DNA of 64,000 nt from Alphaproteobacteria bacterium (GTDB lineage: Bacteria > Pseudomonadota > Alphaproteobacteria > Rhodobacterales > Rhodobacteraceae), in contig JAUHYC010000005.1 in NCBI GenBank assembly GCA_030426685.1, positions 1 to 64,000 on the forward strand, read 5' to 3'. Positions 22,782 to 39,328 of this stretch are shown here, piece by piece. Position 1 is the first letter of the stretch. Each line of letters starts with the position of its first letter. Position numbers and translations under genes: made by a program. A model generated the notes under the pieces. The model did no database searches. It had not been told where the DNA came from and worked only from the letters and a program-made list of their open reading frames with translations.

Positions 22782-23249
22782 TTAACGCGATTTGCGTCCG
22801 AGCAGGATCGAACGTGAATTGTACTTTAGACTTTCCGCTTCCTCGCCCGATAGTGTGGCCGCCTGCAATCGCAGCAAAATCTCATCCGGGATCGGTACGG
22901 CATGGGGGCTTGGTTTTTGCCGGACGTGAAGCTCCATGAATTCGCCAACAGCTACCAGATCATCACCGTTCAGCATCTGCATGTGCAGATGGAAACGCTT
23001 TTCATCACAACTCAGAATACGCGTCTCAATTCGAAGATTGTCAGCTTCCTTGACTTCCCGCAGATAAAACTTGTGGTCCTCAAGTAAGTAGATCGTGCAC
23101 CCGGTGCGCGCGCGATACTCAGCATCGAACCCGACCTCATCTTGCATTGCATCGACGGCGTAGCTGAACACCAGCCCGTAATAGGCATCTTGCATGTGGC
23201 CATTGTAGTCGATCCATTCAGGTTTCACGGTTGTTTCAAAAGTGAACAT
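22782..23249 (-). CDS. Hot-dog-fold acyl-CoA thioesterase, betainyl-CoA-thioesterase-like
   Basis: The ATG at 23249 overlaps the upstream stop by one base (TGATG); 155 residues. The hot-dog signature WIDYNGHMQDAYYGLVF places the catalytic Asp near residue 14. This DYNGHM version is the form I associate with thioesterases of carnitine breakdown, but no other carnitine gene is present. It ends a three-gene minus-strand run with an amidohydrolase and a SnoaL-like protein, divergent from the ABC operon. The acyl-CoA substrate is unknown. Confidence 0.75.
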   Translation of the reverse strand: MFTFETTVKPEWIDYNGHMQDAYYGLVFSYAVDAMQDEVGFDAEYRARTGCTIYLLEDHKFYLREVKEADNLRIETRILSCDEKRFHLHMQMLNGDDLVAVGEFMELHVRQKPSPHAVPIPDEILLRLQAATLSGEEAESLKYNSRSILLGRKSR

Positions 23250-24139
23250 CAATCCCGGGGCACCTCAAGGTCATAGAAACGCGCTGCGGTCTGACTGAAC
23301 ACCGCCGAATGCGCCTCTGCTGGCACCAGATCGTGGTAAGCCTGCGTCAGAGAGGCGTAATCGCCGTAGAGCTTGTCGACCGGGAAGTTCGAACCAAACA
23401 TGACCCTCTCAGGCCCGAATTGTTCAAGACAGGTCTCGACGATCGGGCGAATCGTGTCAGGCGTCCAACCGTGATCGAACATGCCGAGCCCGGAAAGCTT
23501 GCACGAGACTTGCGGCAGATCGGACAGCGCGCGCAGCCTCTGAGCCCAGTCGTTCAGGCCTGCGGGACTGCGGTCATGCGGTGAGCCTGCGTGACACAGG
23601 GCAACGCGGGTGTCCGGGGCCTGAGCGAGAATTCGGGCAGTTTTCTCCATCAACTCAGGAATAAGTTGCAGGTCAAAGCTCAGACAGCGCCGCCCGACCT
23701 CCTGCACCCCGTCCAGAAATCGCGGATCGTCCAGCAGAGAATTGGTGCCTGTGCGCGCGTCCTCTCCGGGTGCGCGGCCAACGATCTGGCGGACGCCGCG
23801 CACGGTCGGAAGGGTCTGAAACGTGTCCAACTGTTTGGACAGGTCGGTCGAGGTCAGGTCACAGAACACAACCTGCGCCATCGGCCAGTCTGGATTGGCA
23901 TCGGCGACGGTTTGGATCCATCGGGCTTCGTCCAGACCGTTTTCAGCCCCCACCTGGATATGGACCGACGCGCGTATGCCGCAGGGTTGGGCTTCGGACC
24001 GGAGCTCGCGCAGCAGGTAATCTCTTTGAATCGGCGTCGGGTCACCAAAGAACCGTTCCACTCCGCGTGCCATCAGCCACGGATAGTGCACCGCCGCAAG
24101 TTCCCAAAGGTGGTGATGCGCGTCGATCCGGCCGGTCAT
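23249..24139 (-). CDS. Amidohydrolase-2 family hydrolase (sugar-lactone/dicarboxylate lactonase type)
   Basis: A 296-residue TIM-barrel hydrolase. RIDAHHHLWE supplies the first metal-site or barrel-mouth histidines, ALCHAGSPHD the His after strand six, and FGSNFPVDKLYGDY the closing aspartate region. This is the COG3618 type, whose members include fuconolactone and 2-pyrone-4,6-dicarboxylate hydrolases and usually work without bound metal. It overlaps the SnoaL-like gene upstream by four bases. In this cluster it may open a lactone produced by one of the dehydrogenases. Confidence 0.82.
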   Translation of the reverse strand: MTGRIDAHHHLWELAAVHYPWLMARGVERFFGDPTPIQRDYLLRELRSEAQPCGIRASVHIQVGAENGLDEARWIQTVADANPDWPMAQVVFCDLTSTDLSKQLDTFQTLPTVRGVRQIVGRAPGEDARTGTNSLLDDPRFLDGVQEVGRRCLSFDLQLIPELMEKTARILAQAPDTRVALCHAGSPHDRSPAGLNDWAQRLRALSDLPQVSCKLSGLGMFDHGWTPDTIRPIVETCLEQFGPERVMFGSNFPVDKLYGDYASLTQAYHDLVPAEAHSAVFSQTAARFYDLEVPRD

Positions 24140-25137
24140 GTCCGCGGCACCTTCGCCATGCGCCCCAGAATATCGACACCTTGTTGCTTCCAGAAATGCA
24201 GAAGGTCGATGAAAATCCAGTTCTCGGCCAGCTTGTCGTCCTCGCGTCGATAGATGTCGATCACCCGGAATTCACCGGCCTTGTCACTAGCGGGCATACC
24301 CATGAACCCACCAGCGGGTCGCGCCGTGAAATTGGGCCAGCCGAAAAAACCGCCATAGTGACCCTCTGCCATACGGCATATGTGGTTGGTCTTGGAACGG
24401 TCCGTGAAGGCTGCGCGGAATGGGCCCGAGTGCTGTTTAGCGTAGCGTTCGATCGTATAAGTTGCACCGATCCCGGCAGGTCCCCACCAGATCATGTTTT
24501 CGCACCATGTTTGGCGCAATTCGTCCTCAAGGCTCAGGCCGCTGTTCCATTGGCCGAGATCGGAAATCATGGCATTAATCGTGCCCAGCGTTTTCTCACC
24601 CACTTCGGCGGGCTGCGGGCTGAACATTAGCCCGTCATGCGTCATCGGCCCGGGTTGAACCAGATGGGCCGCGGTCTGGGGCGGGAAGGGCTGCAGCCCG
24701 GTCTGCATCATGAGGTGCGGGATGTCGAAATACATCGCCGTCTCGGTGATTTTCCCGTTCTCGATCTTGTTGAATTCGCAATAACGCAGAAACGCCATCT
24801 TGCCTGTAGGGGCGATGCCCAGCCATGCATTGTCGAACAGTCCCATGAGGTGCCCCATCGAAACAACCCAGACCGTGGTGAACCCGTCCATCTCGTTTTG
24901 ACCGGCCATGAACACGTCCATCCGACGCTGCAGGTGCTTTAGGCTATGCTTCAGAGGGCACCAGAATTTCTGTGCCACATCTTCGGTTCCATGCAGTTCG
25001 TCAAACGGGTGGAATCCGCGCCACAGATAGTCTTCTGCGCAGAACTTGGACATCGTGCCAGCGATGGCCGATTCTTCAGCCTTGCCTAGCGCCTCATAGT
25101 AATCAAGAACGATAGATTTTTCGGCTTCATAAGGCAT
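24136..25137 (-). CDS. Tandem SnoaL/NTF2-like protein A
   Basis: A 333-residue protein made of two alpha+beta-barrel SnoaL-like units. The first spans about residues 5-165 and ends [20 protein letters not shown] plus ENGKITET; the second spans about 185-325 and ends VIDIYRREDDKLAENW, FIDLLHFWKQQGVDIL. SnoaL relatives are ester cyclases, isomerases or hydrolases with a small polar pocket; none I know explains this double form. It is first in the minus-strand arm and faces the ABC operon across a LacI-type control region. Three further paralogs lie within 11 kb. Biochemical role unknown. Confidence 0.8.
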   Translation of the reverse strand: MPYEAEKSIVLDYYEALGKAEESAIAGTMSKFCAEDYLWRGFHPFDELHGTEDVAQKFWCPLKHSLKHLQRRMDVFMAGQNEMDGFTTVWVVSMGHLMGLFDNAWLGIAPTGKMAFLRYCEFNKIENGKITETAMYFDIPHLMMQTGLQPFPPQTAAHLVQPGPMTHDGLMFSPQPAEVGEKTLGTINAMISDLGQWNSGLSLEDELRQTWCENMIWWGPAGIGATYTIERYAKQHSGPFRAAFTDRSKTNHICRMAEGHYGGFFGWPNFTARPAGGFMGMPASDKAGEFRVIDIYRREDDKLAENWIFIDLLHFWKQQGVDILGRMAKVPRT

Positions 25138-25200
25138 TATGAATTTCTTTCAGTGGTTTAGACTCTGCAGTGGGCCACTTTGCAGCGTGGCCATGTCCCA

Positions 25201-25220
25201 TTTTGCATGCGCATGCAAAA
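25201..25220. promoter_or_regulatory. Perfect 20-base LacI-type operator O1
   Basis: TTTTGCATGCGCATGCAAAA is a perfect palindrome with the central CG step and TGCA ends typical of LacI/GalR operators. It lies five bases upstream of the -35 hexamer of the ABC operon promoter, between the divergent SnoaL-like A gene and the ABC ATPase gene. A separate inverted repeat (GGCCAC 25173-25178, GTGGCC 25187-25192) lies on its left side. Confidence 0.75.
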
Positions 25221-25225
25221 AAAGC

Positions 25226-25255
25226 TTGTCAGATGTTTCTTTTGTTGTCTATGCT
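25226..25255 (+). promoter_or_regulatory. Promoter of the ABC/catabolic operon
   Basis: TTGTCA (25226-25231) and TATGCT (25250-25255) with an 18-base spacer resemble a housekeeping promoter. Operator O1 lies just upstream and O2 covers the expected start of transcription. Confidence 0.5.
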
Positions 25256-25258
25256 TTT

Positions 25259-25272
25259 TGCAAACGTATGCA
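25259..25272. promoter_or_regulatory. LacI-type operator O2
   Basis: TGCAAACGTATGCA matches the LacI-family half-site pattern TGNAANCGNTTNCA at nine of ten fixed positions. Its centre is 55 bases from that of O1, about five helical turns, which would suit binding by one tetramer or cooperative repression. Confidence 0.6.
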
Positions 25273-25297
25273 TGACGACCCATCAGGGAGGGACTCA

Positions 25298-26344
25298 ATG
25301 GCCGAGATTCAACTTCGTAACGTCGGAAAGCGATGGGGTTCGTTTGTCGGCGTTGACAATTTCGACCTGACGATTTCCGACAAAGAGTTTCTTGTACTTC
25401 TTGGCCCTTCAGGCTGCGGCAAAACGACGACCATGCGCATGATCGCCGGTCTGGAAGATGCCAGCGAAGGTGACATTCTGATCGACGGCACCCGCGTTAA
25501 TGATATGGAGCCCAAGGATCGTGACGTCGCGATGGTGTTCCAGTCTTACGCTCTGTATCCGAACATGAACGTTTACGAAAACATTCGGTTCCCGTTGAAG
25601 GTCCGCGGCATCGACCCAGCCACTCACGACGAAAAAGTACGCCGCGCATCCGCTATGGTCGAACTGGACGACTTCCTGCACCGCAAGCCCGCAGAATTGT
25701 CGGGCGGTCAGCGTCAGCGTGTTGCGTTGGCCCGCGCCATTGTGCGGGAACCGAATGTCTTTCTGATGGATGAGCCGCTGTCGAATCTCGACGCCAAACT
25801 GCGCGTGTCCACCCGTGCGCAGATCAAGAACCTCAGCCATGAACTGGCAGTGACAACGATCTATGTGACCCATGACCAGATCGAAGCGATGACGCTGGCT
25901 GATCGTGTGGTCGTCATGAAGCAGGGTGTCGTGCAGCAGGTTGGCAGCCCGACCGACATTTACGACACCCCAGCCAACACCTTTGTGGCCAGCTTCATTG
26001 GTAACCCGGCGATGAACCTCATGGAAGGTGAGGTTCGGGGCGGCACCTTCACGGCTAAGAACGTCGAAATCTCGGGGCTGAATGCTCCGGACGGCCCGAT
26101 GACATTGGGCTTCCGGGCCGAAGATGCCGGCCTTGCTGCCGAAGGGCAGGGGCAGATCAACGCGCCTATCTACACGCAGGAATTGCTTGGTGACGCCACC
26201 ATGATTTCGGTTCGCGTTGGTGGTGCTCTGGTCTCGGTGAAAGCTGACAAGAATTTCCGGGCAGAGATCGACGACATGGTTTCGATCTCGGTTCCAGCTG
26301 AAATTTGCCATCTGTTCGATGGCAAGACCGGCGCCCGAATCTGA
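25298..26344 (+). CDS. ABC transporter ATP-binding protein, CUT1 sugar type (UgpC/MalK-like)
   Basis: The ATG at 25298 has AGGGAGGGA upstream (348 residues); the longer open frame runs through the operators. Walker A is GPSGCGKTT, the ABC signature is LSGGQRQRVALARAI, Walker B is VFLMDEPLSNLDAKLR, and the switch histidine is in TIYVTHDQIEAM. The C-terminal regulatory OB-fold (about residues 235-345) is present as in MalK/UgpC. First gene of an operon encoding all parts of a CUT1 importer. Confidence 0.92.
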   Translation: MAEIQLRNVGKRWGSFVGVDNFDLTISDKEFLVLLGPSGCGKTTTMRMIAGLEDASEGDILIDGTRVNDMEPKDRDVAMVFQSYALYPNMNVYENIRFPLKVRGIDPATHDEKVRRASAMVELDDFLHRKPAELSGGQRQRVALARAIVREPNVFLMDEPLSNLDAKLRVSTRAQIKNLSHELAVTTIYVTHDQIEAMTLADRVVVMKQGVVQQVGSPTDIYDTPANTFVASFIGNPAMNLMEGEVRGGTFTAKNVEISGLNAPDGPMTLGFRAEDAGLAAEGQGQINAPIYTQELLGDATMISVRVGGALVSVKADKNFRAEIDDMVSISVPAEICHLFDGKTGARI

Positions 26345-26444
26345 ACACGGCCCCGCTCAATGATCGGGGGCAAACCCCGGCGCTAAATCTTCACGCGTGA
26401 ACGGGCCACGCACTCAAAAAACTCAGAAAAACAGGGAGACAGAA

Positions 26445-27689
26445 ATGTTCCTGAGAAAAATCGCTACTGCAACCGCCTTTGTGGGCCTGATGGGTTCGGC
26501 AGCCTACGCCGCCGACTGTGGGCCGGAAGGTCAATCCATTCGAATCCTCGCCAGCGACTTTCCGGCAATCCACGCAGTTGCGGGAGCCGCCGAAGCCAAT
26601 TGTGGTGGGGCCGCAGCCGAATTCAGCACCAACCACACCACCGAAGCGCGCTCGATCATGAACGCCGCTCTGACGCCGAACCCGTCGGAATATACATCGG
26701 TGATCCTGGCCAACTCGACGCTGACCCAGCTGATGAACGACGGTCTGGTGCGTCCGCTGAACGATCTGGTTGAGAAATACAAGGACAGCATTCCTCCGAA
26801 CCTGCTGATCACCATTGATGGCAATGTCATGGCCGTGGCCTTCATGGCCAACTCGCAGCACCTGTTCTCGCGCAAGGATATTCTGGAACAGGCCGGCTTT
26901 GAGGGCATTCCGGCAACCTATGAAGAGGTTCTGGAAGCCGCTGAGAAAATTCGTGCTGCTGGTATCATGGAACATCCGATCGCAATGAACCTTCAAACCG
27001 GATGGAACCTGGCCGAGGTGTTCAACATGATCTATCTCGGTCATGGCGGTGAGTTCTTTGTACCCGGTTCCGCCGAGCCATCGATCAACAACGAAAAAGG
27101 CGTGGCCGCGCTGGAAGTTATGAAGGCTCTGGCGGAATACGCCCATCCCGATCATCTGACCCACGCGTCGAACGAGACGCAGGGCCTGTGGGAGTCCGGT
27201 CAGGCAGCTCTTGCGGTCATGTGGGGTTCGCGTGGCGCGCCAATTCTGGATGATGAAGGGTCCACCGAAGAGGTGACTTCGAATACAGTTTTGTCTGCTG
27301 CACCGACCGTTGGCGGCGGATCGATCCCTTCGGCCACGCTGTGGTGGGACGGTATTACCATCGCATCTAACGTATCGGACGAAGAGGCCGAAGCAACCTT
27401 TGCTGCGCTGATCAGCGCCCTGACACCGGAAATGGTGGCTGCGAACAACGATGATGCCGTCTGGCTGCTTGAAGGGTTCCAGCCCGGACCGGCTGCGGCA
27501 GGTGTTGCAGAAACCGTTAAAGGTGGTGCGAAGCCTTATCCGATGATCCCGCAAATTGGCCTGTTGCATGCCGCACTTGGTGCGGAACTCGCGGATTTTC
27601 TGAAGGGTGACGAGAGCGCTGAACAGGCGTTGGCGGATGTCGAAGCCGCTTACCGGACTTCAGCCAAAGAAGCTGGCTTTCTTAAGTAA
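26445..27689 (+). CDS. ABC transporter substrate-binding protein, CUT1 type
   Basis: Start at the ATG at 26445 with AGGGAG upstream (414 residues). The signal peptide ends at about residue 23 (SAAYAAD). Family-1 extracellular binding protein features include SVILANSTLTQLMNDGLVRP, FSRKDILEQAGFEGIPATYE and ALWWDGITIASN. Tryptophan- and acid-rich segments suit a polyol or sugar ligand. It is followed by a hairpin and T-rich stretch before the permease genes, so it may be expressed above them. Confidence 0.9.
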   Translation: MFLRKIATATAFVGLMGSAAYAADCGPEGQSIRILASDFPAIHAVAGAAEANCGGAAAEFSTNHTTEARSIMNAALTPNPSEYTSVILANSTLTQLMNDGLVRPLNDLVEKYKDSIPPNLLITIDGNVMAVAFMANSQHLFSRKDILEQAGFEGIPATYEEVLEAAEKIRAAGIMEHPIAMNLQTGWNLAEVFNMIYLGHGGEFFVPGSAEPSINNEKGVAALEVMKALAEYAHPDHLTHASNETQGLWESGQAALAVMWGSRGAPILDDEGSTEEVTSNTVLSAAPTVGGGSIPSATLWWDGITIASNVSDEEAEATFAALISALTPEMVAANNDDAVWLLEGFQPGPAAAGVAETVKGGAKPYPMIPQIGLLHAALGAELADFLKGDESAEQALADVEAAYRTSAKEAGFLK

Positions 27690-27702
27690 CTCTCCCCGAC
27701 TT

Positions 27703-27735
27703 GAGGGGGCGCAATCTGCCCCCCTCTTCTTTTTC
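27703..27735 (+). terminator. Intercistronic terminator/attenuator after the binding protein
   Basis: GAGGGGGC (27703-27710) pairs with GCCCCCCTC (27718-27726, one extra C), closing a 7-base loop, and TTCTTTTTCC follows. Placed 14 bases after the binding-protein stop and 26 before the permease start, it would let a fraction of transcripts through. Confidence 0.6.
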
Positions 27736-27760
27736 CGGACTAAAGACTGGGACGTACGCC

Positions 27761-28792
27761 ATGAAGCACCGCACCTTTTTCTGGTTCATACTACCGACAT
27801 TATCCGCGATGATCCTGTTCATTGCGCTGCCGATCGTATCGGTCTTTATCCAGTCGCTCTTTGTTGAGCACGAGCAGGTTCTTCTGGTTTCCGAAAGCTG
27901 TGGCCCGTTTGGGTGCACCCCGACAACCACGGTTGATACAGAGGCAACGGCAAAGCTGCAGGAAGAACAGCCGCTGGGCCGGTTCAACGGTCTGGGCACA
28001 TATATCAACCGTTCGCACCTGGCTTTTGCCGAGATCGGAGAGGCGTGGGCGAATTCTGACAGCTTTGGTGATTTCTGGGCTCAGGTGTACAACCTGCCAT
28101 TCTACAGTGCCCTGACATTCACATTGGCGTACACCTTTATTGTCACGCCGCTGGTTTTGGCCCTTGGGTTGGCAATTGCCGTGGGTGTCAACAACCTGCC
28201 GCGTGCGCTCAAAGGGGTTGCGATCTTCATCTCGCTTCTGCCGTTTCTTGTTACTCCGCTGGTTGGTTCGTTGATCCTGTTCTGGATGGTCGATGGCGAC
28301 GGCGTTATCGGCGCCACCATTCAGCGGGTATTCAACGACCCGTCACTGAGCCTGAAGGCCTCGACGGCGCTGACATGGACCATGCTGATGGTCTACGGCG
28401 TGTGGCATACCCTGCCGTTCAGTTTCATCACCTTCTACGCGGGCCTGCAAACCGTCCCCGATGATACGATGGAAGCGGCACAGATCGATGGCGCGACGAA
28501 GTGGCAGCGCTTGATCCACGTGATCGTGCCACACCTGATGCCGCTGGTTTCGTTTGTGACGCTCATGCTGATCATGGATAATTTCCGGGTTTTTGAACCG
28601 ATCGTCAGCTTCAAGGCCGAGGCCCACGCACAGTCGCTCAGCTGGATCATCTACAACGACCTGCGCGAAAGCGGCAATCCGCTCTACGCGTCGGCTGGTG
28701 CGACTTCGCTGATAACCATCATCCTTGCGGTCATCCTGATGTCACCGGTGCTTGTTCGCACCTGGCGCGACTTCACCCGTAAATCTCACTGA
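27761..28792 (+). CDS. ABC transporter permease, MalF-type
   Basis: ATG at 27761 (343 residues). Six or more hydrophobic segments are visible, with the inner-membrane-protein-dependent EAA loop around DTMEAAQIDGATKWQRLIHV. Between the first and second helices lies an unusually long hydrophilic stretch of about 65 residues containing ESCGPFGC, which could form a disulfide if periplasmic. It works with the MalG-type permease directly downstream. Confidence 0.9.
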   Translation: MKHRTFFWFILPTLSAMILFIALPIVSVFIQSLFVEHEQVLLVSESCGPFGCTPTTTVDTEATAKLQEEQPLGRFNGLGTYINRSHLAFAEIGEAWANSDSFGDFWAQVYNLPFYSALTFTLAYTFIVTPLVLALGLAIAVGVNNLPRALKGVAIFISLLPFLVTPLVGSLILFWMVDGDGVIGATIQRVFNDPSLSLKASTALTWTMLMVYGVWHTLPFSFITFYAGLQTVPDDTMEAAQIDGATKWQRLIHVIVPHLMPLVSFVTLMLIMDNFRVFEPIVSFKAEAHAQSLSWIIYNDLRESGNPLYASAGATSLITIILAVILMSPVLVRTWRDFTRKSH

Positions 28793-28801
28793 GGACACGA
28801 C

Positions 28802-29683
28802 ATGGCGACCAAAGCACAATCCCGCATGACTCCGCTAAAGCTGTTCTCTTACGGCTTCGTGGCCCTCTGGCTGATAATTGCCGCTTTCCCATTCTTTTGG
28901 ACCTTCTGGGGCAGCTTCAAGGTACAGGCCGACTTCTTGTCCAAGGCCGACTGGATGAACGCCCTGACTGGTGCCAACACGATCGAGCAAACCGGCAGTG
29001 CCTTTACCGGTGCCGGCTACCACGGGGCATGGGTTCTGGAAGATTTCTGGTTCAACTTCAAGAACACCGGCATCGTGGTTTTCTTCACCGTGCTGATCTC
29101 GCTGACTTTCGGAACGCTCGGGGGTTACGGGTTGGCACGGTCCGGTTTCCGCTATGCCTTCTGGATCCTGATGGCCGCACTTGTGTTCCGTGCGATGCCG
29201 CATATGACGCTGGTCTCGGGCTATCTGCTGTGGTTCTTCGAATGGAATGTCTGGGGCATCCTGCCGACAACCATTATTGTGCTTGTGGCGATCAACCAGC
29301 CCTTCACCTTGTGGATGCTGCACTCGTTCTTCAAGAACATCCCCAAGGACATGGACGAAAGTGCCATGGTCGATGGTTGCACCCGGTTCCAGGCCTTCCG
29401 GCATGTGATTGTCCCGGTCATGTGGCCCGGCGTGATCACCACCGGCCTGTTCAGTTTCCTGCTGGCCTATAACGACTTTACCGTGGCCGTGATGCTCTTG
29501 AGTGAAGAGAACGAGACCATCATTCCCGCCATCAATAGCTTCATGGGCACCACCCAGATCGAAGGCAAGGTCATGTACGCGGTTGCCGCCGTGGTTTCTG
29601 CCACCGCTCCGCTGTTTGTCCTGATCCTGTTCTTCCAGCGCCAGATCGTCAGCGGTCTGACCGCCGGAGCGGTCAAGGGCTGA
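28802..29683 (+). CDS. ABC transporter permease, MalG-type
   Basis: A 293-residue permease with GAGGA as ribosome site. Hydrophobic segments begin at about residue 15; the EAA loop is KDMDESAMVDGCTRFQAFRH. A roughly 55-residue loop after the first helix (EQTGSAFTGAGYHGAWVLED) is longer than usual, mirroring the insertion in its partner. It completes the CUT1 importer. Confidence 0.9.
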   Translation: MATKAQSRMTPLKLFSYGFVALWLIIAAFPFFWTFWGSFKVQADFLSKADWMNALTGANTIEQTGSAFTGAGYHGAWVLEDFWFNFKNTGIVVFFTVLISLTFGTLGGYGLARSGFRYAFWILMAALVFRAMPHMTLVSGYLLWFFEWNVWGILPTTIIVLVAINQPFTLWMLHSFFKNIPKDMDESAMVDGCTRFQAFRHVIVPVMWPGVITTGLFSFLLAYNDFTVAVMLLSEENETIIPAINSFMGTTQIEGKVMYAVAAVVSATAPLFVLILFFQRQIVSGLTAGAVKG

Positions 29684-29718
29684 TGAGCTGCTCGGCCAGA
29701 CATAACGCCGTTGCGCGC

Positions 29719-29818: not shown

Positions 29819-30349
29819 ATGAAGGGCTCCCGCCCCGAACAAGCCGTGCTGACCAAAGACACGGACATGAGCAAGACAGACGAAACCCGCGCCGTGATCG
29901 AGGCGATGGTCGACGGGCTGAACGACCACCGCATTGACGACATAGGCGAGTTTTTTGCCGAAGGGTTTCGCTGGCTGGGCAACCAGGGCTGCGGCACCAA
30001 GACCGGGCTCAAGGAATTTCAGGAAAACTGGCAGCGCCCATTCCAGGCTGCGTTTTCCGACAAGACCTGCATCGATGAGGCCCGGCTTTACATGGGCGAA
30101 TGGGCTGCAGCTTTTGGCCGTCAGGAAGCGACCCATTCCGGTGAATTCCTGGGCATCGCGCCCACCGGCAAGCGGGTCGAAATCCGCTATATGGATTTCT
30201 GGAAAGTCGTCGACGGCAAGATTGTCGACAACTGGGTGAATGTCGATTTCGCCCATGTCGCCATCCAACTGGGCGTGGATCTGTTCAACGGCGAAGGCTG
30301 GGAAACATTCGACCGGGGGGAAAAGACTCCGCCCCGGCCCGACAATTGA
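29819..30349 (+). CDS. Single-domain SnoaL/NTF2-like protein B
   Basis: A 176-residue protein; GGAAGAG lies five bases before the ATG at 29819. One SnoaL-like unit spans about residues 22-165, with [20 protein letters not shown], then [16 protein letters not shown] and [11 protein letters not shown]. Its end closely resembles the C-terminal unit of SnoaL-like protein C two genes downstream, so the two share ancestry. Acid residues in DNWVNVD and the histidine after FA are candidates for the active pocket. Function unknown; ester cyclase is the usual automatic label. Confidence 0.8.
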
Positions 30350-31747: not shown

Positions 31748-31779
31748 TTACGGATTATGAATGAGAAGCAGATAACACA

Positions 31780-32844
31780 ATGCGAGATTTCGCAATGGAC
31801 ACACACTCTACCCACAAGGCCCTGATCACGCCCTTGCGCGAGGCCATGTACAACTTTGACGAGGCCGGCGTCCGCGCCGCGCTAAAGGCGGTGATTGCGC
31901 CTGACGCCGTCATCCACATGCCGCATCCGTTCGGCGATCTGACCGGCCCGCAGGAGCTCTTCGACACCTGCTATGCGCCGCTGCTGACATCCATGCCGGA
32001 TCTGGAACGCCGGGATTGGATCGTGATGGGCGGGCCGACCGAGCACGGCAACGACTGGGTCGGCTGCGGTGGCCATTACTATGGTACCTTCGTCGCCCCC
32101 TGGCTGGACATCCCGCCGACGGGGCATCTGACCCATATGCGGTTCCACGAGTTTTACCGCTTCGAAAATGGCAAGGTTGTCGAGATCCAAACGCTCTGGG
32201 ACATCCCCGAAGTGATGATGCAAGCAAAGGCCTGGCCTATGGCCCCGTCGCTGGGGCTGGAATTCTGCATTCCCGGCCCGGCGACTCTGGATGGCATCGT
32301 GCCCGGACCGTGGGATGAGGCAAAATCTCAGACCTCGTGCAACCATATCGTCGACATGCTGGACCATCTGAAGAAGCATCCCAGCCAGGGTGGACCCGAA
32401 GTGATGGAGATGGAGCGGTTCTGGCATCCGCGCATGAACTGGTACGGCCCCGCCGGTATCGGCACCGGGCGCGGCATCGCGGGTTTCCGCAACTGGCATC
32501 AGATTCCGTTCCTGAATGGCATGCCTGACCGCGGTAAATACGTCGAAGATATCACCTACCATTTCTTTGGCGACGCCGAATATGCCGCCGTCACCGGCTG
32601 GCCGAACATGATCCAGACCGTCACCCATGACGGCTGGATGGGCATTGCACCCTCGGGCAAGAAGATCACCATGAGATCGTTGGACTACTGGCGGCTGGAA
32701 AATGGCCTGATCCGGGAAAACTGGGTCATGGTCGACCTGCTGGACGCCTACCGGCAATTGGGCGTAGATGTCTTTGCCCGCCTGCGCGAATTCAACAAGG
32801 CACGCGTACCGGGCACCATTCCATTCCCGGTTGGCGAGATCTGA
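31780..32844 (+). CDS. Tandem SnoaL/NTF2-like protein C
   Basis: A 354-residue protein with two SnoaL-like units: about residues 10-155 (LDIPPTGHLTHMRFHEFYRF and ENGKVVEIQTLWDIPEVMMQ) and about 195-340 (GWMGIAPSGKKITMRSLDYW and ENWVMVDLLDAYRQLGVDVF). The two ends align with each other and with proteins A and B. A second ATG at 31795 is possible; neither has a strong ribosome site. It ends one base before the SDR start signal region (stop 32842-32844, SDR ATG 32846). Function unknown. Confidence 0.8.
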   Translation: MRDFAMDTHSTHKALITPLREAMYNFDEAGVRAALKAVIAPDAVIHMPHPFGDLTGPQELFDTCYAPLLTSMPDLERRDWIVMGGPTEHGNDWVGCGGHYYGTFVAPWLDIPPTGHLTHMRFHEFYRFENGKVVEIQTLWDIPEVMMQAKAWPMAPSLGLEFCIPGPATLDGIVPGPWDEAKSQTSCNHIVDMLDHLKKHPSQGGPEVMEMERFWHPRMNWYGPAGIGTGRGIAGFRNWHQIPFLNGMPDRGKYVEDITYHFFGDAEYAAVTGWPNMIQTVTHDGWMGIAPSGKKITMRSLDYWRLENGLIRENWVMVDLLDAYRQLGVDVFARLREFNKARVPGTIPFPVGEI

Positions 32845-32845
32845 T

Positions 32846-33613
32846 ATGCCCCAATTCCCCAGCACCCCCAGCTTCAACCTGAGCGGCAAGCGCGCGCTGG
32901 TCGCCGGAGCTTCGTCCGGCATTGGCATGGCCTGCGCCGTGGCGCTGGCGGAACATGGTGCTGAGGTCACCTTAGCGGCGCGCCGTACTGGCGCGCTGCA
33001 GGATATTGCACAGGATATGTCGGCACAGGGGTGGTCTGCCGAGGTTCTGGAACTGGATGTTTCCGACGTGGCGGCAACCGCTGAAGCCGTGGCGCAGAAC
33101 GGGCCGTTCGATATCCTGCTGAATTCGGCCGGGCTTGCCCGTCACGGTAAGGCCGTCGACACGCAGCCGGATGATTTCGATGCGGTGATGGGCGTCAATG
33201 TCAAAGGGGCCTATTTCCTGACCCAGGCCGTAGCCAAGGGCCTGCTGGACGCCGGTCGCCCCGGTTCGCTGATCAATATCTCTAGCCAGATGGGTCATGT
33301 CGGTGGTCGCGAGCGCGCTGTCTATTGTGCGTCGAAATTCGCGGTCGAAGGCTTTACCAAGGCGATGGCGCTGGAATTCGGACCGGCCAAGATCCGGGTC
33401 AACACGATTTGCCCGACCTTCATCCTGACCGAGCTGACCAAGTCCACTTTCGACGATCCGGACAAACGCGCCTGGATTCTCGAAAAGATCAAACTGGGCC
33501 GCCCCGGTGAGATCGAGGACATCATGGGTGCAGTGGTCTATCTGGCCTCAGATGCCTCGGCGCTGGTGACAGGCACGGCGATGATGGTGGACGGAGGTTG
33601 GACGGCAGACTGA
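32846..33613 (+). CDS. Short-chain dehydrogenase/reductase
   Basis: A 255-residue SDR from the ATG at 32846, one base after the previous stop. The cofactor motif is GASSGIG near residue 22, followed by NSAG, the catalytic Ser in INISSQMG and the YCASK Tyr-Lys pair. The C-terminus has the classical GTAMMVDGGWTAD. The residue after strand two (LAARR) favours NADP. It overlaps the LacI start (TGATG). Likely oxidises or reduces a hydroxyl of the cluster's substrate. Confidence 0.9.
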   Translation: MPQFPSTPSFNLSGKRALVAGASSGIGMACAVALAEHGAEVTLAARRTGALQDIAQDMSAQGWSAEVLELDVSDVAATAEAVAQNGPFDILLNSAGLARHGKAVDTQPDDFDAVMGVNVKGAYFLTQAVAKGLLDAGRPGSLINISSQMGHVGGRERAVYCASKFAVEGFTKAMALEFGPAKIRVNTICPTFILTELTKSTFDDPDKRAWILEKIKLGRPGEIEDIMGAVVYLASDASALVTGTAMMVDGGWTAD

Positions 33614-34632
33614 TGGGTGCGCATAAGGTCACATCGGCAGAAGTTGCCCGCCTTGCTGGTGTCAGCCAGTCGGCGGTCAGCCGGGTCTTTACCCCCGGTG
33701 CTTCGGCCTCTGCCAAAACGATCGAAAAAGTGCGCAAAGCGGCCAAAGAGCTGGGGTATCGCCCGAATGTTCTGGCGCGTGCCATGGTGTCGGGCAAAAG
33801 CGGTATCATTGGGCTGGTGGTCGCCTATCTGAACAACCAGTTTTATCCCGAGGCGTTGGAAAAGCTCTCGAACGCCTTGCAAGAGCGTGGCTATCATGTG
33901 CTGGTCTTTATGGCGTCTCAACAGGCCGGCAACATCGACAAGGTGGTTGATGAGATCCTCGATTTTCAGGTCGATGGCATCATCGCTGCCTCGGTGGCCT
34001 TGTCATCGGATTTGTCAGATCGCTGCCGGGCGGCGGGCGTGCCAATGGTGCTGTTCAACCGGGCCCAGGACGATGTGGACATGTCTGCGGTAACCTCAGA
34101 CAATATTTCTGGCGGGCGCAAGGCGGCTGAATTTCTGGTGGCTGGTGGACACCGGAAAATCGGCTATATCGCCGGGTGGGAAGGGGCCTCGACCCAACGC
34201 GACCGTGAGGCTGGTTTCCTGGCGGGTCTGCGCGATAAAGGTGTCGAACTGCATGCCCGCGAAGTTGGAAATTTCGTGACCGAACAGGCGCAGGAGGCAA
34301 CCCGTCGTATGTTCGCCTCGGACCCGCCCGACGCTGTTTTTGTTGCAAACGACCACATGGCCATCGCCGTGATGGACACGCTTCGGTTCGAACTGGGTCT
34401 GAATGTGCCCGGTGATGTATCCGTTGTCGGGTACGATGACGTGGCCGTCTCCTCCTGGCCCACCTATGACCTGACAACCGTAAGGCAGCCTGCCAATCGC
34501 ATGGTCGCTGATACCGTCGATATTCTGCTCAGCAAGATCGAAAACTCCGACGTTGGCCCGCGCCGCGTTGAAATTGACGGCCCTCTAATTGTTCGCGGCT
34601 CTGCCCGCATACCTGAAGGATGGAAGACATGA
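33613..34632 (+). CDS. LacI-family transcriptional regulator of the SnoaL cluster
   Basis: A 339-residue regulator set by the TGATG overlap at 33613. The helix-turn-helix is VTSAEVARLAGVSQSAVSRV at residues about 6-25, with a hinge region ending ARAMVSGKSG; the ligand domain begins IIGLVVAYLNNQFYPEALEK. It lies inside the operon it probably controls; the LacI-type operators O1/O2 at 25201-25272 are the best candidate targets. The inducer is unknown. Confidence 0.9.
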   Translation: MGAHKVTSAEVARLAGVSQSAVSRVFTPGASASAKTIEKVRKAAKELGYRPNVLARAMVSGKSGIIGLVVAYLNNQFYPEALEKLSNALQERGYHVLVFMASQQAGNIDKVVDEILDFQVDGIIAASVALSSDLSDRCRAAGVPMVLFNRAQDDVDMSAVTSDNISGGRKAAEFLVAGGHRKIGYIAGWEGASTQRDREAGFLAGLRDKGVELHAREVGNFVTEQAQEATRRMFASDPPDAVFVANDHMAIAVMDTLRFELGLNVPGDVSVVGYDDVAVSSWPTYDLTTVRQPANRMVADTVDILLSKIENSDVGPRRVEIDGPLIVRGSARIPEGWKT

Positions 34633-35603
34633 AGGGATTTGATCCCAAGTTCAAAGATTTTCCCGACTATATCATCGGGATCACCAAGGAAATTTGGGAA
34701 GACCGTGGTATTGCCACGCTGCATCACTATTACTCCCCGAATATCGTCGTGCGCTCACCCGCGTCTGTGGTCGTCGGCAACCAGGACGTGATCGCTGCAA
34801 CCATGGCGACCTTGGCCGAATTCCCCGACCGCACCCTTCTGGGTGAGGATGTGATCTGGTCGGGAACGCCTGAGGAGGGCATGCTGTCCTCGCACCGCCT
34901 GCTATCCACCGCGACCCATCTGGGTGACGGGGTCTATGGCAAGGCGACCGGCAAGAAGCTCGTCTACCGCATTCTGGCCGACTGCCATGCTATCAACAAC
35001 CAGATCAATGACGAGTGGCTGATCCGCGACCAGAGCGCAATCGTGCAGCAGATGGGCTGGGACCCCAAGGAATATGCCCGCGATCTGATCGCGCGCGAGG
35101 GTGGGCCTGACGCCTGCGTACAACCCCTCACGCCTGCGAACGATCAGCCCGGCCCTTACAAAGGCCGTGGCAATGACAATGAATGGGGCCAAAAATACGC
35201 CGACATCCTGAACCGGATCATGAATGCCGATATGGGCGTGATCGAGGCAGAGTATGACCGCGCCGTCCTGTCTGAATATCCCGGTGGCACCACAGGTCAT
35301 AGCTGGGGGCCAGTGGATCGGTTCTGGATGGGCCTTCGCGCCGCGTTCCCGAATGCAGAATTCAAGATCGAGCACCAGATTGGTCGTGACGATCCGATGA
35401 TGCCACCGCGCGCCGCAATCCGCTGGACGCTACACGGCAAGCACGACGGTTGGGGCGTCTTCGGTGTGCCGACCGGGGCCGAGGTCTTTGTGCTGGGCAT
35501 CAGCCAGGCCGAGTTTGGCCCCTGGGGTCTGCGTAAGGAATACACCTTGTTTGACGAAACCTCGATCTGGAAACAGATTTTGCTGAAAACCGGCGATCTC
35601 TAG
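34629..35603 (+). CDS. Tandem SnoaL/NTF2-like protein D
   Basis: Start placed at the ATG at 34629, which overlaps the LacI stop (ATGA) and has GGAAG upstream; an ATG at 34620 is too close to its ribosome site. The 324 residues form two units, ending GKATGKKLVYRILADCHAIN with DEWLIRD (about residue 140), and GVPTGAEVFVLGISQAEF with LFDETSIWKQI near the C-terminus. It is the most divergent of the four paralogs. Function unknown. Confidence 0.78.
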   Translation: MKGFDPKFKDFPDYIIGITKEIWEDRGIATLHHYYSPNIVVRSPASVVVGNQDVIAATMATLAEFPDRTLLGEDVIWSGTPEEGMLSSHRLLSTATHLGDGVYGKATGKKLVYRILADCHAINNQINDEWLIRDQSAIVQQMGWDPKEYARDLIAREGGPDACVQPLTPANDQPGPYKGRGNDNEWGQKYADILNRIMNADMGVIEAEYDRAVLSEYPGGTTGHSWGPVDRFWMGLRAAFPNAEFKIEHQIGRDDPMMPPRAAIRWTLHGKHDGWGVFGVPTGAEVFVLGISQAEFGPWGLRKEYTLFDETSIWKQILLKTGDL

Positions 35604-35714
35604 AATGTCGCACCGTATCTCAAATCTCGATGCCGGGCAGGCGTTGCGGCGGTTCCACGCCCATCGCGCCAGCCTGCGCGCCCGGCGGCTGAACAATCGC
35701 CCGCCGGGAGGTTT

Positions 35715-35733
35715 GGTTTGATCCGATCAAACC
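35715..35733. promoter_or_regulatory. Perfect 19-base palindrome upstream of the cupin gene
   Basis: GGTTTGATC and its exact complement flank one central C; flanking TTT/AAA can extend the pairing after one mismatch. It ends six bases before the AGAGGAG ribosome site of the cupin gene, so it could be an operator or an RNA hairpin acting on translation. It does not match the LacI pattern found elsewhere in this window. Confidence 0.6.
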
Positions 35734-35754
35734 CAAATCAAGAGGAGAAAAGAT

Positions 35755-36717
35755 ATGAGTACCATCGAAAGCCGCATCGTGCGTTATGGCGAACTGAAGC
35801 CTTGTAAAACCGCGTTCATCGACGCCCACACGCCGGGCTCGGACCAGAAAGAGAATTTTACCATCATCGGCGGCGGCGTTTCCGAAAGCCCCGATCAGCA
35901 CGTCCACATCACCGACAAGATCGGGTTCAACATCGGCGCGGCGGGGCAACCGCCGAAATGCCGCAACTCGCTGCACAGCCACACCACCGCCGAGGTTTTC
36001 TTTGTCGCGAAAGGCCGGTGGCGGTTCTTCTGGGGCCGCTATGGCACTGCAGGCGAATTCATCGCCGAAGAAGGTGACATCTTCAACATACCGACGGGCA
36101 TCTTCCGTGGGTTCGAAAACGTGGGCCAGGATTACGGCATGATCATGTCGATGCTGGGTGGCGATGACGCCGGTGGCGGTGTGACCTGGGCTCCGCAAGT
36201 CATTCAGGACGCGCAGGCCCATGGTCTGGTGCTGGGCAATAATGGCGTCCTGTACGATAGCAAGAAGGGCGAGGAACTGCCGCACAATGTGCAGCCCATG
36301 CCGCTGCTGACCGAGGAACAGCTGAAAGCGTATCCCGAGGTTCCCGTGGATGCGGTGATCGGCAAATATGTCGCCCGCTACTGGGACCTGATGGCGCTGG
36401 CAGCGGACAAGCCTGCGGTTGTGATCGGTGAAAATGGCCTGATCAAGGACAAGCCCGGTTTCGAGGTGGATTTCCTGACACGCGGTTCGGCCGTGTCCGA
36501 ACCGGTCAAGGCGGACAAGCCCGTGGTTCTGATGCCGGCCAGCGGCCACTGGCGCATCAAGATCAATGAGGTTGAGGTTACCCTGTCCAACGGCGACACC
36601 GCGCTGGTTCTGCCCGGTGAAAGCTACAGCGCCGAGCCGTCAATGACCGGTGAAGCGGGTCTGTACCGTATCACCGCAACTGACGATCCGGCCGGGGCGA
36701 CCTGGACGGGCGCATAA
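35755..36717 (+). CDS. Cupin-domain protein
   Basis: A 320-residue protein with GAGGAG as ribosome site. The first cupin (about residues 45-140) has NSLHSHTTAEVFFVAKGRWR and GDIFNIPTGIFRGFEN, giving the His-x-His, Glu and later positions of a metal site, although the last His is Arg. A second, weaker barrel lies at about 230-310 (SGHWRIKINEVEVTLSNGDT). Cupins include dioxygenases, isomerases and epimerases. It begins the second part of the cluster after a palindromic control element. No specific reaction can be assigned. Confidence 0.8.
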   Translation: MSTIESRIVRYGELKPCKTAFIDAHTPGSDQKENFTIIGGGVSESPDQHVHITDKIGFNIGAAGQPPKCRNSLHSHTTAEVFFVAKGRWRFFWGRYGTAGEFIAEEGDIFNIPTGIFRGFENVGQDYGMIMSMLGGDDAGGGVTWAPQVIQDAQAHGLVLGNNGVLYDSKKGEELPHNVQPMPLLTEEQLKAYPEVPVDAVIGKYVARYWDLMALAADKPAVVIGENGLIKDKPGFEVDFLTRGSAVSEPVKADKPVVLMPASGHWRIKINEVEVTLSNGDTALVLPGESYSAEPSMTGEAGLYRITATDDPAGATWTGA

Positions 36718-36819
36718 CGCCAAAATTGCGTGTCCCGATTTCAATCGGGGCATGCTGAGCGCATCCTGCACCAGGTTTCCAGCCCGGCGCAGGAACAAGA
36801 TTTGAATGGAGATGAAGAC

Positions 36820-37944
36820 ATGACCCCTATTTCAACCACCCATGTTGGAAGCCTGCCGCGCAGTCAGGAGGTCGTGGACTTCATCTTCGCGCGCGAGCGG
36901 GAGGAGCCGTTCGATCAGGCCGCATTCGATGCCTGCATGACCGCTGCGGTTTCCGAAACCGTGCGCAAACAGGCCGAGGCCGGGATTGATATCGTCTCGG
37001 ACGGTGAGACCTCAAAAATCTCTTATGCCACTTATGTGAAGGACCGCTATACCGGCTTTGCTGGTGACAGCCCGCGCAAAGCACCGGCGGACCTCAAGAT
37101 GTTTCCGGGCTTTCTGCAACGTTTGGCCGATGACGGTGGAACGCCGCAATATGCGCGGCCCATGTGCGTGGGTGAGGTGCGCTCGAAAGGGCAGGGTGAG
37201 CTGCTGAAGGATATCGACAATCTCAAGGCCGCGATGGCCGAACACGGGGTCGAGCGCGGCTTTATGAACGCCGCCAGCCCCGGGGTGATTTCGCTGTTTT
37301 TGCAGAATGATTTCTACCCAACGCGTGAGGCTTATCTGGCCGCGCTGGCCGATGCGATGAAAGAAGAATATGAGACCATCGTTGGTGCGGGTTTGGATTT
37401 GCAGCTGGATTGCCCGGATCTGGCCCTGTCGCGCCATATGCTGTTCACTGATCTGTCCGACGATGAGTTCGTGAAAATCGCCGATATGCATGTTGAGGCG
37501 CTGAACCACGCATTGCGGGATGTGCCGGCGGACAAGGTGCGCGTTCATATCTGCTGGGGCAATTACGAGGGTCCGCATTGCTGCGACATCGGCATGGACA
37601 AGGTGTTTCCGACGCTGATGTCCACCAAATCTCGCTATGTGCTGTTTGAAACGTCGAACCCGCGACACGCGCATGAATGGACGGTGTTCCGCGACCGCAA
37701 AGGTGAGATTCCCGATGACAAGGTTCTGGTGCCCGGCGTGGTCGACACCACAACCAACTTTGTTGAACACCCGGAATTGATCGCGCAGCGTGTTGAGCGG
37801 TTTGCCAACATCGTAGGCGCCGAACGCGTGATTGCCGGATCGGATTGCGGCTTTGGCACCTTTGCAGGCTTTGGCGCGGTCGACCCGGATATCGCCTATG
37901 CCAAATTGGGCGCGCTGGTCGAAGGGGCTGCCCTGGTCAAATGA
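36820..37944 (+). CDS. Cobalamin-independent methionine-synthase-like (MetE C-terminal) protein
   Basis: ATG at 36820 (374 residues). Only the catalytic barrel of MetE is present, half the length of true MetE. Zinc ligands are suggested by VHICWGNYEG (His and Cys) and GSDCGFGTF (Cys). The opening ISTTHVGSLPRSQEVVDFIF is typical of short MetE homologues in catabolic clusters, which may move a methyl or alkyl group from a substrate to a thiol, or do an unrelated reaction. Overlaps the alpha/beta hydrolase by four bases. Confidence 0.82.
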   Translation: MTPISTTHVGSLPRSQEVVDFIFAREREEPFDQAAFDACMTAAVSETVRKQAEAGIDIVSDGETSKISYATYVKDRYTGFAGDSPRKAPADLKMFPGFLQRLADDGGTPQYARPMCVGEVRSKGQGELLKDIDNLKAAMAEHGVERGFMNAASPGVISLFLQNDFYPTREAYLAALADAMKEEYETIVGAGLDLQLDCPDLALSRHMLFTDLSDDEFVKIADMHVEALNHALRDVPADKVRVHICWGNYEGPHCCDIGMDKVFPTLMSTKSRYVLFETSNPRHAHEWTVFRDRKGEIPDDKVLVPGVVDTTTNFVEHPELIAQRVERFANIVGAERVIAGSDCGFGTFAGFGAVDPDIAYAKLGALVEGAALVK

Positions 37945-38636
37945 CGCCGCTTATCCTCCTGCCCGGCATGATGTGCGATGCGCGGTTGTTCACCCCGCAG
38001 ATTGACGCTCTGTCAGGAAAATACCCGATCCTTTCTGCACCGATCGGCGGACGGGACACAATGCAGGCGCTGGCCGCCGATGTGTTGACCTATGCGCCTG
38101 AACGTTTTGCGATGGCGGGGCTCTCCATGGGTGGCATCGTGGCGATGGAAATCCTGCGGCAGGCTCCGGATCGTGTGGCCGGTCTGGCCTTGATGGATAC
38201 CAATCCTCTGGCAGAGTTGGACGAGGTGCAGGCCAGGCGCGGCCCTCAGATCGACGCCGTCGAACGCGGCAACCTGCGAAAGGTGATGGCCGAAGAGATG
38301 AAGCCGAACTATCTGACGGATGGCCCGCGCCGCGCTTCCATTCTGGATTTGTGCATGGATATGGCCATGGATCTCGGGCCGGAGGTTTTCATCAATCAAT
38401 CCAAAGCACTGCGTGATCGCCCAGATCAGAGCAACACCCTACGCGAGTTCACCGGCGCAGCTCTGGTTCTCTGTGGGCGCGACGATGCCTTGTGCCCCGT
38501 CTCAAGGCATGAACTGATGCACGATTTGATACCGCAGAGCCGGTTGGAGATCATCGAAAACGCCGGGCATCTGCCGACTCTGGAGCAACCGCAACAAACC
38601 ACGGCGGCCCTGACCCGCTGGCTGGAGACAATATGA
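37941..38636 (+). CDS. Alpha/beta hydrolase
   Basis: A 231-residue hydrolase from the ATG at 37941, fixed by the ATGA overlap. The nucleophile Ser is in GLSMGG, the acid in LVLCGRDDALCP and the His in ENAGHLPTLEQP; the oxyanion region is LLPGMMCD. Small carboxylesterase or enol-lactone-hydrolase size. It overlaps the RraA-like gene by four bases, so the MetE-like, hydrolase and RraA-like proteins are made together and likely act in sequence. Confidence 0.87.
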   Translation: MTPLILLPGMMCDARLFTPQIDALSGKYPILSAPIGGRDTMQALAADVLTYAPERFAMAGLSMGGIVAMEILRQAPDRVAGLALMDTNPLAELDEVQARRGPQIDAVERGNLRKVMAEEMKPNYLTDGPRRASILDLCMDMAMDLGPEVFINQSKALRDRPDQSNTLREFTGAALVLCGRDDALCPVSRHELMHDLIPQSRLEIIENAGHLPTLEQPQQTTAALTRWLETI

Positions 38637-39328
38637 ACCAATCTCTGCTGGACCTGCTGAAAAAGGTCGACACGCCAACAGTTTGCAACGCCATCGAAGT
38701 GGCGCAGGGCAAGCGCGGTTTCGATGATTTTACCCGGGGCACAATGGTGTGCTCTGATCCCGAAGCGGGCGCGATGGTGGGATATGCCCGTACCGCGAAG
38801 ATTGCCGCCGTGAACCCGCCGACCGAGGCACCTGATGTGATCCGCGCGCGCCGCATGGATTACTACCGGCACATGGCCTCGGGCAGCGGCCCATCTGTGA
38901 CAGTGGTGGAAGATTTGGATTATCCCGACTGCATCGGTGCCTATTGGGGTGAGATCAATACGACCGTCCACAAGGGTTTTGGCATCAGCGGTGCATTGAC
39001 CAATGGCGTGATGCGGGACCTCGGCGACCTGCCGGATGGCTTCCCGGTGGTTGCCGGGTCTGTCGGACCAAGCCACGGGTTCGTGCACGTGAAAGAGGTT
39101 GGAACACCAGTGACAATCTTCGGCCTGTCGATCAAAGACGGCGACCTTGTGCATGCCGACCGACATGGTGCTCTGGTGATCCCGCCCGAGGTGGTGGACG
39201 AACTTGAACGGGCGATCATCAAGCTGCTTGAAACCGAAAGACTGATCCTGGATCCCGCCCGCGCTAAAGGGTTCGATTTTGACGCCTTCGAAAAAGCATG
39301 GGCGGCGTTTGAAGCCTCTCGGACTTAG
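38633..39328 (+). CDS. RraA-family aldolase/decarboxylase-like protein
   Basis: A 231-residue protein of the RraA/HMG-aldolase fold: DTPTVCNAIEVAQG at the start, then a central GALTNGVMRDLGDLPDGF with the Arg-Asp pair that binds metal and carboxylate in 4-hydroxy-4-methyl-2-oxoglutarate aldolases, and VHADRHGALVIPPEV. Catabolic members cleave 4-hydroxy-2-oxo acids or decarboxylate oxaloacetate. It is last in the cluster and could yield pyruvate-type products. RNase E inhibition is less likely in this setting. Confidence 0.83.
   Translation: MNQSLLDLLKKVDTPTVCNAIEVAQGKRGFDDFTRGTMVCSDPEAGAMVGYARTAKIAAVNPPTEAPDVIRARRMDYYRHMASGSGPSVTVVEDLDYPDCIGAYWGEINTTVHKGFGISGALTNGVMRDLGDLPDGFPVVAGSVGPSHGFVHVKEVGTPVTIFGLSIKDGDLVHADRHGALVIPPEVVDELERAIIKLLETERLILDPARAKGFDFDAFEKAWAAFEASRT

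Follow-up and report, generated by a model that had tools for sequence, protein, structure and literature searches.

Positions 22782–39328 of a 64,000-nucleotide stretch of a Rhodobacteraceae genome (GenBank assembly GCA_030426685.1, contig JAUHYC010000005.1, positions 1 to 64,000; hereafter the window) hold an island of seventeen genes that we read, with a probability of roughly 0.6, as a system under LacI control that imports and degrades a single small polar compound. The substrate is probably an O-methylated hydroxymethyl compound, which would be broken down oxidatively, with an aldol cleavage that yields pyruvate as the last step. The genes lie on contig C39 of a 3.87 Mb assembly and form two divergent groups. 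The leftward group comprises SnA, an amidohydrolase and a thioesterase-like gene; the rightward group opens with a four-gene CUT1 importer, followed by SnB, the histidinol-dehydrogenase-fold protein HisDL, SnC, a short-chain dehydrogenase/reductase (SDR), a LacI-family regulator, SnD, a cupin, a MetE-like protein, an alpha/beta hydrolase and an RraA-like protein. SnA, SnB, SnC and SnD are the SnoaL-like members of the set. All genes that a preliminary description of this DNA had named lie at or near the places it assigned within 22782–39328, each with Pfam support.

22782–23252, minus strand: 4HBT_2 thioesterase-like protein, last gene of the divergent unit (PF13279, E 7e-28)
23249–24139, minus strand: AMH2, amidohydrolase-2 family, L-fuconolactonase-like (PF04909; conserved blocks)
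24136–25137, minus strand: SnA, two SnoaL units (PF07366 in two stretches, PF12680)
25201–25220, no strand: candidate LacI-type operator, perfect palindrome TTTTGCATGCGCATGCAAAA (sequence scan)
25258–25273, no strand: second operator-like site TTGCAAACGTATGCAT (2 mismatches against TTGCATRCGYATGCAA)
25298–26344, plus strand: ABC importer ATPase, UgpC-like (PF00005)
26445–27689, plus strand: solute-binding protein, SBP_bac_1 (PF01547)
27701–28792, plus strand: ABC permease A, start possibly at 27761 (PF00528)
28802–29683, plus strand: ABC permease B (PF00528)
about 29867–30349, plus strand: SnB, one SnoaL unit (PF07366, E 9e-22)
30361–31707, plus strand: HisDL, histidinol-dehydrogenase fold, own subfamily, motif GKFPM (PF00815)
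about 31795–32844, plus strand: SnC, two SnoaL units, usually adjoining the importer (PF07366, two stretches)
32846–33613, plus strand: SDR dehydrogenase (PF13561/PF00106)
33613–34632, plus strand: LacI-family regulator (PF00356, PF13377)
about 34620–35603, plus strand: SnD, two SnoaL units, the second weak in Pfam (PF07366)
35755–36717, plus strand: cupin, H74/H76/E80 metal-site type (PF07883)
36820–37944, plus strand: MetE catalytic-domain protein (PF01717)
37941–38636, plus strand: alpha/beta hydrolase, esterase-like (PF12697)
38633–39328, plus strand: RraA-family aldolase-like protein (PF03737)

Conservation of the gene set

The preliminary description had proposed a catabolic island in which several SnoaL-like enzymes act on an imported molecule, and had named a lack of co-occurrence elsewhere as a refuting result; the genes do co-occur in other genomes. 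We compared the best 80 of 374 loci, which derive mostly from Ruegeria kin and other roseobacters and are not independent; within this set the nearest named relatives of SnC are those of Ruegeria. Together with eight annotated loci, these contain the permeases in 77–78 cases, SnD in 72, LacI in 63, the cupin in 60, SnB in 58, HisDL in 57, the SDR in 56, the hydrolase in 52, the RraA-like protein in 46, the MetE-like protein in 44 and AMH2 in 30, while the thioesterase-like gene is patchily present; about 20 of the 80 loci are bare or truncated where a contig or flank stops, and absence there means little. As to gene order, for which a genome-context search had been recommended earlier, most full-set loci share that of the window.

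In a family sample of 149 genomes from 148 genera, SnC (E limit 1e-90) was detected in 40, the cupin (1e-3) in 54 and HisDL (1e-150) in 66. All 40 SnC genomes also carry the cupin and HisDL, the cupin of G035 being only a distant copy, and HisDL accompanies the cupin in 53 of 54 genomes; three of the 54 cupins are distant copies (G035, G065 and G084). Fisher tests gave P of about 1e-24 for SnC with the cupin, 5e-19 for SnC with HisDL and 1e-26 for the cupin with HisDL, treating as independent genomes that are not entirely so. HisDL lies within 10 kb of a strong cupin match in 45 of 51 genomes, and the cupin reaches 53 of the 148 sampled genera. In wider samples, a SnC profile that also catches SnA found matches at E ≤1e-50 in 22 of 398 phylum genomes and 28 of 385 class genomes. 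The genes co-occur far beyond chance, and the system is conserved.

Loci with SnC but little else were followed in 18 hand-picked genomes, in which the locus mostly consists of the importer and SnC with or without SnD, and in two cases of SnC alone; L039, L052 and L053, the bare loci with the shortest contigs, lie outside these 18. HisDL is encoded elsewhere in all 18 genomes at no less than 74% identity (two matches being partial), and the cupin in 17 (one a distant copy; the genome that lacks it is a metagenome-assembled genome, MAG), compared with 54 of the 149 family genomes. Since many of these second loci have their own SnoaL and importer genes, the bare loci represent extra copies in core-bearing genomes, and they would feed the same pathway.

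A wider core was recovered across phyla from annotated plasmid records of Sinorhizobium, Roseibium, Martelella, Novosphingobium, Deinococcus, Pantoea and Priestia. It consists of at least one SnD-like protein (25–33% identity), a HisD-type dehydrogenase, an SDR, a LacI regulator, a cupin, a hydrolase and an aldolase, with identities to the window proteins of 40–89% for HisDL, 40–70% for the SDR and 32–80% for the cupin. The Sinorhizobium HisD-type gene is unannotated, a coding stretch for one being present, and the single HisD of Priestia is no closer to HisDL (40%) than to HisD2 (45%), a second HisD form. HisD2, counted at no less than 60% identity to the Roseibium copy, occurs in eight loci, all eight of which also hold an amidase. 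Among the seven records, six carry an amidase and Deinococcus has a carbon-nitrogen hydrolase instead. Outside this set, the archaeon Halobellus combines five SnoaL proteins with a MetE-like gene, and a soil Ensifer holds relatives of SnB and SnC. On sequence comparison, SnD is a SnoaL type with homologs across phyla at the identities given, at least one SnD-like protein belongs to the cross-phylum core, and SnA, SnB and SnC supplement it, being common in the marine family. The preliminary description had placed all four SnoaL-like proteins at the centre.

Enzymes of the island

SnA, SnB, SnC and SnD all match PF07366 and PF12680 above the Pfam whole-protein gathering scores. In line with the first description, which had put the number at about seven, they contain seven SnoaL units, two each in SnA, SnC and SnD and one in SnB, the weakest being the second unit of SnD: this protein has one clear PF07366 stretch (residues 22–144), and its second (202–294) fails on its own. 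When the double proteins were halved by hand and the seven units aligned with MAFFT, one Asp column and one Gln column were common to all seven, at pairwise identities of 13–34% (closest pairs A1/C1 at 31%, A2/C2 at 33% and B/C2 at 34%). The shared motif chain reported before (G-x-APTGK, ENG/DGK, W-x-x-x-D) is exact in some units only, while the Asp of its C-terminal W-x-x-x-D segment is found in every one. This residue is unchanged in 23 sequences of SnA (D138 and D311), 58 of SnB (D128), 42 of SnC (D141 and D319) and 30 of SnD (D137 and D312). It aligns with an Asp of the cyclase IdmH, and we take it, from SnoaL, to be an acid/base residue.

The polyketide cyclases SnoaL, SnoL and IdmH belong to the same Pfam family (PF07366) and share the near-C-terminal Asp, and the solved relatives include SnoL, AclR and IdmH, as would suit a biosynthetic, polyketide-like island with SnoaL cyclases. 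In contrast to those systems, the proteins described here occur as tandem units in a catabolic context with an importer. No polyketide synthase is present among the island genes, and the usual partners are instead an importer, a LacI regulator and an aldolase; we therefore rejected polyketide biosynthesis, which we regard as extremely improbable. A phage origin was likewise rejected, as a PHROGs search with the four SnoaL proteins returned no match at E 0.001.

HisDL is nearest to HpsN (E 9e-115 to CpHpsN, against 7e-70 at best to HisD), its closest solved relative, and retains the zinc ligands, the catalytic Glu-His and the Asp-Lys loop (QAEH, SEH and GDK). It passes the NCBIfam TIGR00069 cut-off but lacks the HisD-type substrate motif. 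By analogy with these enzymes, the group on which it acts is likely a CH2OH adjoining an OH or NH. The relationship to HpsN raises the alternative that the substrate is a sulfonated polyol, namely 2,3-dihydroxypropane-1-sulfonate (DHPS) or a conjugate, and HisDL its HpsN; sulfonated polyols had been among the growth substrates put forward in the preliminary description. According to PMC11382572, the sulfonate-recognition residue His126 of HpsN sits in a G-R-Y-A/S-H motif and a Lys contacts the sulfonate in CpHpsN. HisDL keeps this Lys, but in the window it reads GKFPM at the motif, without the sulfonate-reading His. Of 73 aligned rows, 70 have Pro and then Met, Leu or Ile, the latter at the His126 position, one is a gap and two are controls from the same genome; His is found in none of the 70. 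The controls are a separate HpsN-type protein (GRYSH) and a separate HisD-type copy (L105, GLASY), both named by motif. Because HisDL lacks the recognition His and the genome has its own HpsN-type protein, a sulfonated substrate appears unlikely; we rejected the sulfonated polyol on the HpsN motif and consider this version of the pathway very unlikely. Like DHPS catabolism (hpsN, hpsO, hpsP and a transporter), the island places a HisD-fold dehydrogenase in a roseobacter catabolic operon, and HpsO is an SDR (PMC11131964); unlike it, the island has the His replaced and adds SnoaL, cupin, MetE-like and RraA genes. The SDR of the island has Y159 and K163 unchanged in 62 sequences.

The MetE-like protein (374 amino acids) keeps H243, C245, E277 and C343 in 46 of 46 sequences, presumably as zinc ligands by comparison with MetE. 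It shares these ligands with the catalytic domain of cobalamin-independent methionine synthase but lacks the N-terminal half and is located in a catabolic operon. A homolog in Novosphingobium lies within O-demethylation genes (DesA, metF, purU and LigAB), a feature shared with tetrahydrofolate-dependent O-demethylation sets (DesA/LigM, metF and purU). In Halobellus, a DesA/LigM-like gene scoring under its cut-off lies about 9 kb before the first SnoaL gene and about 14 kb from the MetE-like gene; no DesA/LigM gene was found in the roseobacter island. The retained ligands and the O-demethylation neighbourhood of the homolog point to a methyl group on the substrate.

The RraA-like protein has an Arg-Asp pair (R128-D129) in 52 of 52 sequences, aligned with 3noj (E 0.002), which we take to be catalytic. 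It shares the family and this pair with the 4-carboxy-4-hydroxy-2-oxoadipate (CHA) aldolases LigK/ProA, yet reaches only 25.7 of the 304.5 bits required for TIGR02798, far under the equivalog cut-off. By annotation, the place of RraA is taken in Novosphingobium, Deinococcus, Pantoea and Priestia by an HpcH/HpaI-type aldolase with the same partner genes around it, and this exchange points to pyruvate-forming aldol cleavage. In the alpha/beta hydrolase, S62 and H210 are invariant in 61 sequences, and the PDB esterase 4uhh is matched at E 8e-25. In the cupin, HxH and Glu are invariant, as is R118 at the position of the last His, and similarity to acireductone dioxygenase and 3-hydroxyanthranilate dioxygenase is weak. 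AMH2 scores 125 of the 400 bits needed for NF052480, and the thioesterase-like protein matches the C-terminal part of NF005716 under its cut-off.

These enzymes could also be assigned to a methoxylated aromatic, with the cupin as a ring-cleaving dioxygenase: a relative of the MetE-like protein stands beside DesA, metF, purU and LigAB, and RraA is distantly related to the CHA aldolase of gallate pathways. A CUT1 sugar-type importer with a LacI regulator is, however, unusual for aromatics; HisDL should, by analogy, require a hydroxymethyl beside a metal-binding group; and the cupin resembles known ring-cleaving enzymes only weakly. We consider an aromatic substrate unlikely.

Operator candidate and regulation

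The interval between SnA and the importer contains a perfect palindrome of 20 bases centred on CG (25201–25220), to which the LacI protein encoded at 33613–34632 would bind. We scanned 63 loci for the 16-base core of this palindrome over the 300 bases that precede the ATPase gene, with a pattern derived from the same loci that were later used for its count. SnA is divergent in 53 of these loci, and the core is present in all 53 at ≤3 mismatches and in 52 at ≤2 (none in 22, one in 25, two in 5 and three in 1); of the ten loci without a divergent SnA, four carry it at 1–2 mismatches and six have at least four. For comparison, 225 of 20,000 random 300-base stretches from the same loci, true sites included, reach ≤2 mismatches. 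In its own genome the pattern occurs at ≤2 mismatches in three places, namely both island sites and one before the neighbouring LacI/Gfo-Idh pair, and in the window there are four matches at ≤3 mismatches against 1.1 expected, a number reached by 4 of 100 shuffles. A further CG-centred palindrome lies at 40494, before the adjoining myo-inositol-type operon.

De novo clustering of neighbouring genes returned many antisense shadow open reading frames (ORFs) and, besides the window genes, a recurrent LysR gene (11 loci) and a methyltransferase-like ORF (14 loci). A LysR gene stands directly before the importer in L035, L038, L051, L056, L060, L064, L068, L074, L075 and L079, and before the importer of the full cluster L030 as well. 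In L038, L051, L056, L060, L068 and L079 the palindrome is absent upstream of the ATPase gene.

Proposed route, substrate and neighbouring genes

Taken as one route, the compound would enter through the CUT1 importer. SnA, SnB and SnC may be cofactor-free acid/base enzymes that remove or rearrange substituents, and HisDL, like HpsN and HisD, would use NAD in two successive oxidations to turn a CH2OH that neighbours a hydroxyl (or amine) into a carboxylate. The SDR could oxidize or reduce a ketone/alcohol, and SnD, being related to aldol cyclases, could act on the carbon skeleton by an aldol-type reaction or a dehydration. Removal of the methyl group would fall to the MetE-like zinc protein, the cupin may open or isomerize an enol/ketone intermediate, the esterase would split an ester or lactone, and RraA (elsewhere HpcH) would cleave a 4-hydroxy-2-oxo acid to pyruvate and a second fragment.

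Several findings weigh against this reading. The metal site of the cupin is incomplete compared with that of classic dioxygenases, which has four ligands (HxH, E, H), the fourth being absent, and the best PDB profile match of this protein has an E of only 0.0018. RraA, the MetE-like protein, AMH2 and both of the two HpcH proteins examined, out of four, score under NCBIfam equivalog cut-offs; for the MetE-like protein this applies to every such model. Twelve of 13 HisDL regions from cupin-less genomes (L166–L168 and L170–L178) have no SnoaL gene in the fetched stretch, and in several of them HisDL, alone or with an SDR, adjoins ribose-type or TRAP importers. HisDL is thus not specific to this pathway, and the subfamily may serve other substrates as well. 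Finally, a two-mismatch operator pattern also arises by chance, and a reversed control pattern occurs in two genome places against three, so that only the perfect site stands out.

A different assignment is to methylated, branched or acylated sugars, polyols or cyclitols, with the SnoaL proteins as isomerases or eliminases acting on keto-sugars. The CUT1 importer, the LacI regulator and the solute-binding protein, whose solved relatives are mostly sugar binders (weak matches), speak for it, as do the HisDL genes beside ribose-type importers and the myo-inositol-type operon next door. On the other hand, kinase, sugar isomerase and glycosidase are all absent from the conserved set, and a sugar or polyol alone leaves the amidase and the second HisD of another form unexplained. 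We regard this assignment as possible but doubtful. Cyclitols, which the preliminary description had listed for growth experiments, are not suggested by the genes, although the adjoining myo-inositol-type operon has a LacI gene of its own.

Returning to an O-methylated hydroxymethyl compound, a tentative candidate is a mycosporine, which would make the island one of mycosporine catabolism. Mycosporines carry a 5-hydroxy-5-(hydroxymethyl)-2-methoxy-cyclohexenone ring joined to amino acids (Gly, Ser or Thr) or amino alcohols. The candidate is attractive because a methyl group, a nitrogen substituent, a hydroxymethyl-carbinol, SnoaL aldol chemistry and a pyruvate aldolase combine. Here HisDL would oxidize the CH2OH that the ring carries next to its tertiary OH; detachment of the amino acids and ring opening through a retro-aldol reaction, the reverse of aldol cyclization, would fall to SnoaL units; the MetE-like protein would take the O-methyl group and RraA/HpcH would yield pyruvate; and the amidase and second HisD form could fit the fungal compounds mycosporine-glutaminol and mycosporine-glutamine. 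Against it stand the occurrence of HisDL in unrelated importer contexts and the SDR, which has no clear role in such a route. The habitats of the records (stony coral, leaves, dune soil and a solar saltern) fit mycosporines, but reflect genome sampling and are not a test.

Genes of amino acid metabolism were scanned in 175 of 188 loci (minus L001–L004, L100–L105 and L186–L188; about 2.99 Mb). Among 156 SnoaL-bearing loci, some of which overlap or share a genome, kbl occurs, at the identity limits set, in four (Halomonas twice, Ensifer and one Rhodobacteraceae MAG), tdh in three (L091 has a further, partial copy at its end), serine dehydratase in two (one genus) and sarcosine oxidase in two, against a chance expectation of about 0.75 per gene at one copy per genome of about 4 Mb. 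These genes are suggestive at most, and weak evidence for mycosporines.

In agreement with the earlier statement that the set is not part of a known pathway, a literature search of titles and abstract starts, with most subscription journals outside its reach, found no publication on this gene set or on bacterial mycosporine catabolism. The spread of the gene set in a major marine family, with relatives from soil, leaf and saltern, points to a common environmental compound that it would break down. Tandem SnoaL proteins in catabolism, a further subfamily of the HisD fold and a short MetE-like protein gain a common context from the island, and should mycosporines be the substrate, it would open the fate of these abundant sunscreens to direct study.

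Turning to the surroundings of the island, the next operon (39404–46762) encodes a LacI regulator, a Gfo/Idh dehydrogenase, a ribose-type binding protein and importer, a TIM-barrel protein and a KduI/IolB family protein, and is of the myo-inositol type. L164, a 12.6-kb contig from the genome of L063, carries SnA and AMH2 followed by Gfo/Idh (64%) and RbsB (41%) homologs; from this contig, the adjacency of the island and the operon may not be confined to one genome. A di-haem cytochrome c peroxidase/MauG domain gene lies directly left of the island (20918–22687), and at 9501–13133 a DAO-GCV_T fusion (dimethylglycine-dehydrogenase-like) precedes an enolase-superfamily gene.

In other loci, a GMC (choline-dehydrogenase-like) oxidoreductase gene is found in L025, L032, L037, L046, L049, L061, L118, L122 and L165, and in the last three it lies between the importer genes and SnB or HisDL. 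The fetched stretches of L062, L087 and L092 contain an SBP56 selenium-binding protein, which we take to belong to the methanethiol oxidase family. In L042, a solitary SnC follows genes of the MttB-type methyltransferase, FAD oxidoreductase and alkylsulfatase types, with a sulfatase-like gene also recognized by eye.

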